Shown piece after piece: positions 583 to 62,551 of a DNA stretch of 64,000 nucleotides. Every line of letters starts with the position of its first letter. Position 1 is the first letter of the stretch. This DNA comes from Tuberibacillus sp. Marseille-P3662. GTDB taxonomy: Bacteria > Bacillota > Bacilli > Bacillales > Sporolactobacillaceae. Position numbers and translations under genes: made by a program. Under the pieces are notes generated by a model. The model saw only the letters and a program-made list of their open reading frames with translations. It was not told where the DNA came from and searched no databases. The stretch spans positions 248,001 through 312,000 of the forward strand of contig NZ_FXBS01000006.1 of NCBI RefSeq assembly GCF_900178005.1, written 5' to 3'.

Positions 583-984
583 ATGTTCGGGATAAAAAAG
601 CGCCTTCAGCGGGACAAACAAATAAAAGAAATCAACGAACGTATGCAGCACATTGAAAATTCGCTTCAGACGCTTTCAAAGCAGGGTTTGAATTATTATG
701 TCACGATTGAGCACTTGGATGTTAAGGACCCTGTTCTTGAACATTTGGATTTTAACTTTGACAGTTTAGATGTTAAAGAGGTTAGCGGCGCACTTAATGT
801 GGGCAATAATTTTGGTGTCAACGTGCACAGTAAGAAACAGGGAGAGCAAAAAAAACAACAGCAAACATCGTCTGTATCGCAAAACAATCAAGACCAACAG
901 CAAACGTCATCAAGTTCTAATAGAAATGGTGAGTGGCATCGCAACAATAAGGGATTATCCTATACATTTTCCCAAAACAAGTAA
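583..984 (+). CDS. GerPC-like spore protein
   Basis: A 133-residue protein. The ATG at 583 is preferred over the TTG at 577 because AAGGG ends seven bases before it. The N-terminal 35 residues are a charged, probably coiled-coil helix (QIKEINERMQHIENSLQ). Next comes YYVTIEHLDVKDPVLEHL and a segment ending VSGALNVGNNFGV, the strand pattern seen in GerPC (a coiled coil, then IEHL/LDVKxL/GxLNIG). The C-terminal 45 residues are Gln/Ser/Asn-rich and probably disordered. It lies between two small GerP-like genes, as GerPC does in gerP operons. Confidence 0.55.
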   Translation: MFGIKKRLQRDKQIKEINERMQHIENSLQTLSKQGLNYYVTIEHLDVKDPVLEHLDFNFDSLDVKEVSGALNVGNNFGVNVHSKKQGEQKKQQQTSSVSQNNQDQQQTSSSSNRNGEWHRNNKGLSYTFSQNK

Positions 985-999
985 AGGGGGCGTAGAGCT

Positions 1000-9852: not shown

Positions 9853-10140
9853 TAACATCGAAATTTGTATAATTTTAAATGGTGATGAGGAGTAGTAACG
9901 AAATGTTTTCTCAGAGAATTGGCGGTGGCTGCGAGCCAATGGATGAATCGTGAACTCGCCTCGGAGTTTTGATTGTGAGTGACTGACGTAGCAATCAACG
10001 TCTCGTCCGCGTTAAGGATCCAGAGTGAATGGCGAACTACGTCATTAACTAGGGTGGAACCGCGGGAAACAATGATTGTGATATCAACCTCTCGTCCCTA
10101 ACAATATTGTTAAGGGCGGGAGGTTGATTTGTATGTTTTT
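9853..10140 (+). promoter_or_regulatory. Leucine T-box riboswitch upstream of leuS
   Basis: Stem I includes AGGAGTAGTAACG near 9889 and the specifier loop GTGAACTCGCC, where CTC (9955-9957) is a leucine codon. The T-box sequence AGGGTGGAACCGCG lies at 10051-10064. The intrinsic terminator follows, from CAACCTC (10085-10091) to GAGGTTG (10120-10126), then a T-rich tail. Uncharged tRNA-Leu binding the specifier and T-box stabilises the antiterminator and allows leuS expression. The codon identity agrees with the downstream gene. Confidence 0.95.
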
Positions 10141-22513: not shown

Positions 22514-22573
22514 CGATGCTGGCACGTCCTGTTACAACACCGATATTAGCACGTCCTGTGCGTCGGAAGGAGG
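22514..22573 (+). repeat. Two tandem copies of a CGATGCTGGCACGTCCTG repeat before trmB
   Basis: CGATGCTGGCACGTCCTGT (22514-22532) is repeated 27 bases on as CGATATTAGCACGTCCTGT (22541-22559). GCGTCGGAAGGAGG follows and contains the trmB ribosome-binding site. The second copy can fold as GCAC-GTCCT-GTGC inside CCGA/TCGG. A related copy is at 53194. Confidence 0.75.
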
Positions 22574-22580
22574 AAAGTTC

Positions 22581-23222
22581 ATGCGACCGCGTTATAAGCC
22601 ATGGGCCAAAGATTTCATCGCCCGTCATCCAGAGGTCATTATTCCAAATGCTCATGAGAAACGGGGAATGTGGCACACCTCTTTTGCTCAGCCTGATTTA
22701 CCATTACATATTGAGATTGGCTCAGGGAAAGGCAAATTTATATTTGAAATGGCACAAAGACACCCGGATGTTAACTTTATTGGAATCGAACGTGATGAAA
22801 ACATCATTGTTAGTATTTTACAAAAAATTATCCAACAACCGCTAGATAATTTACGTTTACTACAAGTTGATGCGAATGACTTGCTAAGCATTTTTGCACC
22901 AAATGAAGTTGATCGGTTTTACTTGAATTTTTCTGATCCATGGCCAAAGAATCGACATGAAAAACGTCGGTTGACATATCGGGCGTTTTTGGATCAATAT
23001 AAGACGATTTTAAAACCTAGCGGCGAGCTTCATATGAAGACAGATAACCAAGGCCTATTTGAATACTCTCTAGAGAGTTTTTCGAGATATGGGATGATTA
23101 TTAAGAATATCAGTTTGGATTTACATCAATCCAATTTTCCTGACAATGTTACAACAGAATATGAGGAAAAATTTAAGGCTAAAGGTCAGCGTATCTATCA
23201 TTGTCAAACCTTGTTCAGATAA
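22581..23222 (+). CDS. trmB: tRNA (guanine-N7-)-methyltransferase
   Basis: A 213-residue enzyme that makes m7G46 in tRNA. The SAM motif IEIGSGKGKFI is at 45-55, and the family signature FSDPWPKNRHEKRRL lies near 114-128, with the catalytic Asp in its first part. The ATG at 22581 is supported by AAGGAGG seven bases upstream; the longer reading from 22506 would run through the repeat element. Its place after ytmP-ytzH matches B. subtilis ytmQ. Confidence 0.95.
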   Translation: MRPRYKPWAKDFIARHPEVIIPNAHEKRGMWHTSFAQPDLPLHIEIGSGKGKFIFEMAQRHPDVNFIGIERDENIIVSILQKIIQQPLDNLRLLQVDANDLLSIFAPNEVDRFYLNFSDPWPKNRHEKRRLTYRAFLDQYKTILKPSGELHMKTDNQGLFEYSLESFSRYGMIIKNISLDLHQSNFPDNVTTEYEEKFKAKGQRIYHCQTLFR

Positions 23223-56172: not shown

Positions 56173-56265
56173 AAGCACTTCCTCGCTTACTAAGGACAAC
56201 GATTTCATTTTAGCGAGGAAGTGAGATCGACATAGTGAAAATGACTATATAGTAGGAGTGCTTAT
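56173..56265 (+). promoter_or_regulatory. Copy 2 of the leader-like element, upstream of ytxK
   Basis: CACTTCCTCGCT (56176-56187) and AGCGAGGAAGTG (56212-56223) are perfect 12-bp inverted repeats with a 24-nt loop that contains CTAAG-x-AC and TCATTTT. AAGCACT-T-CC (56173-56182) can instead pair with GGAGTGCTT (56255-56263), nine pairs with one bulge, which covers the ytxK ribosome-binding site. A weak promoter (TTGCGT 56123, TAAGAT 56146) lies upstream. Confidence 0.6.
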
Positions 56266-61105: not shown

Positions 61106-61136
61106 GAAGCTGCGATATAAAGTCGCAGCTTTCTTT
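61106..61136. terminator. Bidirectional terminator, ald / peptidase
   Basis: AAGCTGCGA (61107-61115) pairs fully with TCGCAGCTT (61123-61131) around a 7-nt loop. Confidence 0.85.
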
Positions 61137-62239
61137 CAATCAATTACGGTTAGGTCTTTCGGATACTTGGTTAAACATTCAGGCCCATCTGGCCCGATAT
61201 GCACATCATCTTCAATGCGAACGCCGCCAATGTCAGGGACATAAATACCAGGTTCAATCGTAATCAGCATGCCTTCACCTAACTGATTCTTATTAGCATC
61301 ACTAAGAGATGGTGCCTCATGGGCATCTAATCCAAGGCCATGGCCGACTCTGTGCGGAAAGTAGTCACCATAACCGGCATCGGTAATGACCTGTCTTGCG
61401 GTTCGGTCCAATTGGTTCATGGGTTGTTCTATGGTACATTGAGCGATGCTTTGTTGCTGGGCATTGAGTACGGTTTCGTAAATCGCTTTTTGCTTTTCAG
61501 TAGCGTGCTTATAAATGAAAGTGCGGGTAATATCAGAGCAGTAGCCGTTCACAACAACACCTAGATCGAACATTACGAAGTCGCCTTCTTTAATTTGGCG
61601 TTCGCCTGGGTGACCGTGGGGCATGGCCGTCTTTTCGCCGGTCAACACCATGGTTGAAAATGCCATTTCCGGATAACCACGTTTCGTCAGCTCATATTCG
61701 ATTTCCGCAATAATAGCCTGTTCAGTGCGACCTTTCTTTATGGCTTCAACACCCGTTTGGATCGCAAAATCAGCCAGTTCAGCGGCTTTGCGCAAGTGGA
61801 CTAATTCTTCCGGATCTTTGACCATTCGCATCTGTTCAATCATAGGTTCAGCAGCATCAATGGTCAGTTGAGTAAACATGGACTCAAGCTTTTGGACACG
61901 AGCGAAAGAGAGGTAATCGGTTTCTATAATTGCTTTAGCATGACCGGTCAAATCTCGTTGCTTGAACGCGCTTTTCAGAGCGTCCCAAGGATCCTCATGA
62001 TCTTGGTAGCCGATCACCTGATGAGCCCAACCCGCTGATTTTGCCTGATCCGCTTCCATAGCAGGACAAATAATTAGAGGTTCAGATTCTGGAAAAATAA
62101 CTAAGCCTAAAAGGCGCTCATGAGGTTCACATTTGAACCCTGAGAAATAAAAAACATTTTTTGGATGTGAGATATAGGCAAATGTGATGTCATTTTGTGA
62201 TAACCATGCCTGCAATCTATGGAGACGCTTGTCATTCAT
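61136..62239 (-). CDS. M24 family Xaa-Pro peptidase
   Basis: About 367 residues, creatinase/prolidase type. N-terminal domain 1-130; catalytic domain with the dinuclear metal ligands in FDLGVVVNGYCSDITRTF (two Asp), HRVGHGLGLDAHE (His), TIEPGIYV (Glu) and GGVRIEDDV (Glu). It cleaves Xaa-Pro dipeptides or the N-terminal residue before Pro. It resembles B. subtilis PapA/YqhT and PapB/YkvY. The ATG at 62239 is my choice; the longer frame from 62266 starts before AGGAG (62253-62257). Confidence 0.85.
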   Translation of the reverse strand: MNDKRLHRLQAWLSQNDITFAYISHPKNVFYFSGFKCEPHERLLGLVIFPESEPLIICPAMEADQAKSAGWAHQVIGYQDHEDPWDALKSAFKQRDLTGHAKAIIETDYLSFARVQKLESMFTQLTIDAAEPMIEQMRMVKDPEELVHLRKAAELADFAIQTGVEAIKKGRTEQAIIAEIEYELTKRGYPEMAFSTMVLTGEKTAMPHGHPGERQIKEGDFVMFDLGVVVNGYCSDITRTFIYKHATEKQKAIYETVLNAQQQSIAQCTIEQPMNQLDRTARQVITDAGYGDYFPHRVGHGLGLDAHEAPSLSDANKNQLGEGMLITIEPGIYVPDIGGVRIEDDVHIGPDGPECLTKYPKDLTVID

Positions 62240-62263
62240 CGAACTTTTCACACTCCTGATAAT

Positions 62264-62512
62264 CATTTTTACTATCTTGTATTTACCCCACTGCTAAAAT
62301 GATATGGTAGTACTTAGCGAAGCGGGGAAGTGCTTCTGATATAATCATTTTTACTTCGTCGCAAGACCCCTTTGCTAAAATGATATGGTAGTACTTAGCG
62401 GAGCGGGGAAGTGCTTCTGATATAATCATTTTACTTCGTCGCAAGACCCCTTTGCTAAAATGATATGGTAGTACTTAGCGAAGCGGGGAAGTGCTTCCAA
62501 TTAAATCATTTA
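62264..62512 (-). repeat. Three tandem copies of the leader-like element
   Basis: Units of 80-81 bp begin at 62292, 62373 and 62453 (plus-strand TGCTAAAATGAT). On the minus strand each reads GAAGCACTTCCCCGC, CTAAGTACTACCATATCATTTTAGC, AAGGGG, then GCGACGAAGTAAAATGATTATATCAG. The CACTTCC segments are at 62487-62497, 62407-62417 and 62326-62336 (plus coordinates). The last partial unit runs into AGGAGTG, the ribosome-binding site of the peptidase gene. The array fills about half of the 460-base gap. Confidence 0.85.
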
Positions 62513-62522
62513 TGTATACTTT

Positions 62523-62551
62523 ATCATAATGTGTCATCATTGTTCAGTCAA
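62523..62551 (-). promoter_or_regulatory. Promoter reading through the tandem elements to the M24 peptidase
   Basis: Minus strand: TTGACT (62551-62546), 17 bases, TATGAT (62528-62523). Transcription should start near 62516, a few bases before the first element, giving a leader of about 275 nt. The rest of the gap up to 62727 shows nothing else clear. Confidence 0.75.

Follow-up and report, generated by a model that had tools for sequence, protein, structure and literature searches.

The closest described systems are small non-autonomous dispersed repeats, namely BOX, RUP and SPRITE of pneumococcus, bcr1 of Bacillus cereus, ERIC, Correia/NEMIS and Nezha, which the relevant passages of PMC3049150 and PMC3733652 present as MITE-like. 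REP elements are extragenic palindromes of 20-40 bp that carry a GTAG or CGTC tag, and RAYT proteins are IS200/IS605-like Y1 transposases, according to the part of PMC3733652 that deals with them. The tandem riboswitches, with candidates at glnA among them (PMC2864571), are a further system to compare. The repeat family that we describe here in the genome of Tuberibacillus sp. Marseille-P3662 is small, non-coding, multi-copy and dispersed, as a MITE is. To judge from those passages, it shares with the small repeats a length under 300 bp, a lack of coding capacity, many copies per genome and restriction to a lineage, as well as hairpin formation and transcription with neighbouring genes; its modular tandem amplification is like that of boxB, and like REP elements it is a short hairpin element with tandem clusters and asymmetric ends. 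Unlike the small repeats, it has no terminal inverted repeats that we could see and no matching transposase among the Y1, TnpB and reverse-transcriptase types that we looked for, and it appears to use the Shine-Dalgarno (SD) site as its target, in one orientation and with the SD restored. An SD-type target is not described in the relevant passages of PMC3049150 and PMC3733652, and narrow phrase searches of an incomplete library of open papers returned no report of an SD-targeted repeat. A further difference from the REP/RAYT systems is that this genome has no RAYT or other Y1 protein.

Our starting point was a stretch of 64 kb, called the window below. On its minus strand, three tandem units (62496-62251) separate a sigma-70-like promoter from the SD of an M24 peptidase gene. 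The features are as follows.

61136..62239, minus strand: M24 peptidase (Xaa-Pro dipeptidase-like), likely start ATG 62239, by Pfam and homologue starts
62251..62256, minus strand: SD GGAGTG, closing the array on its 3' side, by sequence and homologue comparison
62251..62335, minus strand: unit 3 (gene-proximal), diverged in its 3' half, with the working SD at its end; covariance model 85 bits
62333..62416, minus strand: unit 2 (middle), almost the same as unit 1; covariance model 82.4 bits; genome coordinates 310333-310416
62414..62496, minus strand: unit 1 (distal), GAAGCACTTCCCC...AAAATGATTATATCAGAAG; covariance model 76.9 bits
62497..62514, minus strand: possible remnant of the tail of a fourth unit, the most distal one, AAATGATTTAATTGGAAG, by sequence and weak on its own
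62523..62551, minus strand: sigma-70-like promoter TTGACT-N17-TATGAT; 10/12 matches
56173..56256, plus strand: single unit of the family before a YtxK-like methyltransferase gene; covariance model 76.6 bits
24223..24296, plus strand: one degenerate unit 5' of a small gene; covariance model 35 bits

The first-pass annotation had described three tandem units of 80-81 bp on the minus strand, between a promoter and the SD of the peptidase gene, and this description holds. Three 80-nt copies lie at 62268-62347, 62349-62428 and 62429-62508 with spacings of 81 and 80, and a 27-nt core of the unit occurs exactly three times in the 64-kb window and in none of 100 shuffles. The outer copies are 83% and 94% identical to the middle one; two of the units are indeed almost identical while the gene-proximal one has diverged, and the range first given for the array ends short of the final SD. 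The promoter (62551-62523) stands as proposed, with 10 of 12 matches, though such sites are not rare (3 found versus 1.9 expected in shuffles). As had also been noted, CACTTCC occurs in all three units and GGAGTG only at the gene-proximal end (62256-62251), the two inner junctions having CAGAAG in its place. The gene is assigned by Pfam (Peptidase_M24, 1.4e-64; Creatinase_N, 4.7e-23). Its likely start codon is not at 62266 but is ATG 62239, the position at which the homologues begin. In three relatives GGAGTG precedes the M24 gene and there is no array, the leader reading GATAGGAGTGTAAATAATG or similar. Directly upstream of the window array, AAATGATTTAATTGGAAG may be the tail relic of a fourth unit, and comparable relics lie upstream of full units at three other loci (L012, L016 and L200).

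The array had been taken for a private leader of the peptidase, since only the window had been visible. Its unit is in fact that of a dispersed, genome-wide family with at least 54 copies of ~82 bp at about 37 loci and the consensus GGAGCACTTCCCCGCTTCGCTAAGYACTACCATATCATTTTAGCRGGGAAGnnAARGTCGACGTAGTAAAAATGATTRYAGAGGGAG. An iterated profile search gave 54 units at 34 fetched loci, with three further loci added later; a DNA search with a two-unit query gave 34 matches in the same genome, and a covariance model gave 52 at E <= 0.001. The model added four loci, of which L199-L201 carry the unit in sense orientation 5' of a gene, and the fourth, L202, is a weak and degenerate match that may not precede a gene. 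With the same model and threshold the family is absent from 25 other genomes of Sporolactobacillaceae. The two-unit query gave one weak match in 20 relatives and one in 396 other genomes of the order, the latter in a genome of another family, and there were no matches in plasmids, phages and viral contigs. The genes behind the units include dapA, leuB, ilvA, hisS, parE, a moeA-like gene, tpiA, aroC, the homoserine dehydrogenase gene and truB, as well as arsC, the gene of ribosomal protein L25/Ctc, the citrate synthase gene, etfA, and gerA-like and uvdE-like genes, and no common pathway is visible among them.

The initial reading of the array was a tandem riboswitch or other ligand-sensing leader of the peptidase, with the CACTTCC arms masking the SD. 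The place of the array between promoter and SD agrees with this, as does the SD-CACTTCCCC pairing predicted at the M24 locus (p=0.73), and tandem structured repeats in a 5' UTR are also what the glycine and TPP riboswitches and the glnA candidates present. However, the glycine and TPP tandem riboswitches control functionally related genes and show covariation, whereas the unit stands before about 37 functionally unrelated genes and covariation is weak, with no convincing case. Searching the window and ten loci against Rfam, we obtained only T-box and Bacillaceae-1 and nothing for the short unit, and no terminator-like site was found on the transcribed strand within the M24 array. The masking is not systematic either: over 25 leaders the SD was unpaired at 0.40 versus 0.35 in shuffled leaders (P=0.30), and we rejected SD sequestration as a family-wide rule. 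The proposed anti-SD arm survives as a predicted pairing with CACTTCCCC in several leaders, the window leader among them, and a local regulatory effect at the M24 gene is possible because its SD is so paired in the predicted fold, while these data reveal no such family property. We regard the riboswitch reading as largely refuted and barely credible by now.

In each of the about 37 loci the unit lies 5' of a gene and on its strand, and at about 36 the final GGGAG or equivalent of the unit is the gene's own SD; the exception is L019, where tens of bases separate the unit's SD from the predicted start codon. The earlier suggestion that a unit end can act as a ribosome-binding site turns out to be a general rule across the family. 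In the window, a rough gene prediction makes SDs of 28 of the 60 noncoding GGAG sites (47%), so 36 out of 36 copies would fall in SDs with a probability of ~1e-12 if insertion at noncoding GGAG were random and unselected. Either the SD itself is the target, or copies located elsewhere get lost.

GGAG flanks the repeat on both sides, with CTTCC adjoining it at the left end. Immediately 5' of the first unit the information profile shows purine-rich sequence, and the last 7 nt there match AAGGAGG by at least 3 nt at 26 of 27 loci, versus 5-7 of 27 in control windows taken further upstream. In several operons the upstream stop codon runs directly into such a half SD, at pgk-tpiA (GAATAGGAG), dapA (TAATGTAAGGA), L199 (CCTTAGGA) and L017 (GGATAAAGGAG). 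The pgk-tpiA junction here reads GAATAGGAG-(unit ...GGGAG)-GAGACTAAC-GTG with a gap of 92, versus GAATAGGAGGTCATTCTG-TTG and GAATAGGAGGGGTCTCTG-TTG with a gap of 12 in two Pullulanibacillus genomes, both of which have GAATAGGAGG(T/G)... followed by TTG after 12 nt. The dapA junction here reads TAAGGA-(two units ...GGGAG)-ATGGGTATTGTG, and in another genus it is an uninterrupted AAATAGGAGATGAGAACAGTG. These empty sites come from other genera and locate the extra DNA without dating its arrival.

Our analysis suggests, with a probability of about 0.72, that the M24 array arose when a lineage-specific dispersed repeat of ~82 bp, inserted into existing SDs in one orientation, was amplified locally. 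The computed basis is the family, its position and orientation, the flanking GGAG, the SDs interrupted relative to those of relatives, and the homogeneity within arrays. The repeat would enter an existing SD in a single orientation and leave GGAG on either side, the upstream one being the remnant of the old SD and the downstream one, at the 3' end of the repeat, the working SD; the gene would stay translatable because the 3' GGAG of the repeat replaces its SD. Duplication within the locus would then build arrays of 2 to 6 units. We infer that the family spread by transposition-like insertion and that its position is due mainly to target choice and not to a common regulatory role. We seem to be dealing with an element that moves, or once moved, and that has a very unusual target. 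The common view is that dispersed bacterial repeats persist by landing where they are harmless; this one occupies the start signal of central genes (hisS, tpiA, parE) and may persist by bringing its own signal. If this is confirmed, the SD would be a safe-harbour target present upstream of most genes, many unrelated genes would have a route to a common 5' leader, and scans that label tandem leaders as riboswitches would need caution.

A more far-reaching proposal is tentative, and we would bet against it at present: that the repeat is mobile and targeted to SDs in one orientation, perhaps through pairing of its own anti-SD-like CTTCCCC, and that it is tolerated upstream of essential genes with its replacement SD. 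If true, an SD-targeted repeat carrying a replacement SD would represent a way of choosing targets that is new among bacterial elements. In IS200/IS605 elements, guide sequences pair with the target, and by analogy the conserved CTTCCCC by the left end could pair with the GGAG target as RNA or single-stranded DNA, the transposase having been lost or being of an unrecognised kind. This special form of the insertion reading would account for the asymmetric target and the single orientation, for GGAG at both ends with CTTCC next to the left one, and for the 5'-truncated copies with intact 3' ends at L012, L013, L016, L077 and L079. But truncation from the 5' side is also expected if selection acts only on the 3' end, and the genome, which is 99.96% complete, has no match to Y1 transposase (PF01797), TnpB (PF07282) or reverse transcriptase (PF00078). 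The ends GGAGCACTTCC and AGAGGGAG are not inverted repeats of each other, and we saw no terminal inverted repeats; this and the missing enzymes weigh against the insertion reading as a whole too. We judge this special form to be quite improbable.

The strict confinement to SDs could alternatively reflect selection for a common 5'-UTR function. The unit would then act in cis on translation or mRNA stability in general, for instance as a structured standby or stabiliser beside the SD; selection would have favoured its spread and retention for better or tuned expression, with the arrays acting as dosage. The exclusively sense, SD-adjacent position fits this idea, and so does the uneven conservation along the unit (divergence 5% at columns 4-16 and 29% at columns 45-57), which suggests constraint. 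Two complementarities are well kept, a candidate hairpin CACTTCCCCGCT/AGCRGGGAAG (columns 7-16 with 42-51, 91% of cells) and a loop-to-tail match by the SD, ATCATTTT/AAAATGAT (columns 34-41 with 68-75, 95% of cells). Most of these pairs, however, show no change on both sides; compensatory change is nearly absent, with 3 double changes, a number reached by 24 of 500 shuffles, and RNAalifold gives almost no consensus fold. We rejected covariation as proof of a pseudoknot or hairpin, the sequences being too uniform and the one-sided changes favouring neither strand. The accessibility of the SD is that of shuffled leaders, as given above, and the orthologous genes of all other genera do without the unit. 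A general cis-acting element is in our opinion unlikely.

Arrays of 2, 3, 5 or 6 units are found at several loci. The mean identity is 96% between units of one array and 78% between units of different loci, and the junction sequence differs from array to array, so the arrays are, by their sequences, a product of local duplication or homogenisation, as the first-pass annotation had proposed for the window array, and not of repeated independent insertion. Distal units are often reduced to a 3' tail (L012, L016, L200). At L014 a T-box leader (722-956) is followed by six tandem units (1020-1491) before the hisS SD; another T-box leader (RF00230, 125.8 bits) lies in the window at 9873-10102.

About ten loci carry a long form, in which a Bacillaceae-1-like RNA (RF01690) lies within the unit at the mid-unit AAGG. 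RF01690 scores above threshold inside the long form at L015 and L016; it is absent from the short unit of the window array, and the 64-kb window has no match above its gathering score. Long copies are more diverged (mean 18%, versus 11% for short array copies; small samples), so a deletion in the long form may have given rise to the short form, which then multiplied. Bacillaceae-1 has 0 to 94 copies per genome across the family and the order. Because its copies elsewhere are intergenic, occur in either orientation and form part of larger repeats, we rejected it as an element generally found in 5' UTRs. The strand of this RNA has been described as uncertain, and the reverse complement has been put forward as a CsrA-binding sequence (PMC4333381).

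Several minor observations were made at other loci. Matches outside this genome to a degenerate unit pattern were rejected; apart from apparently chance matches in coding DNA, they belong to another dispersed repeat, that of Pullulanibacillus, TTAGAAAAC...GCACTTCACCGCTTCGCTAAGCACAGCC... (L032-L043), with ~22 nt in common with the unit, which we take to resemble the ends of IS605-type elements. The ilvA gene (L012, about 932-985, minus strand) seems to have none of ATG, GTG and TTG where its homologues would have it begin, and the reading frame suggests that ATT after the repeat's SD is the start codon. Bacillaceae-1-type hairpins, some in tandem, lie directly 5' of the SD of trmB-like and other genes (window 22520-22590, L074, L078 and L083). 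At L074 they are in tandem and AAGGA follows the upstream stop codon, which suggests an SD placement like that of the unit. At L142 and L151, Bacillaceae-1 copies lie directly before apparent starts of 5S rRNA genes.
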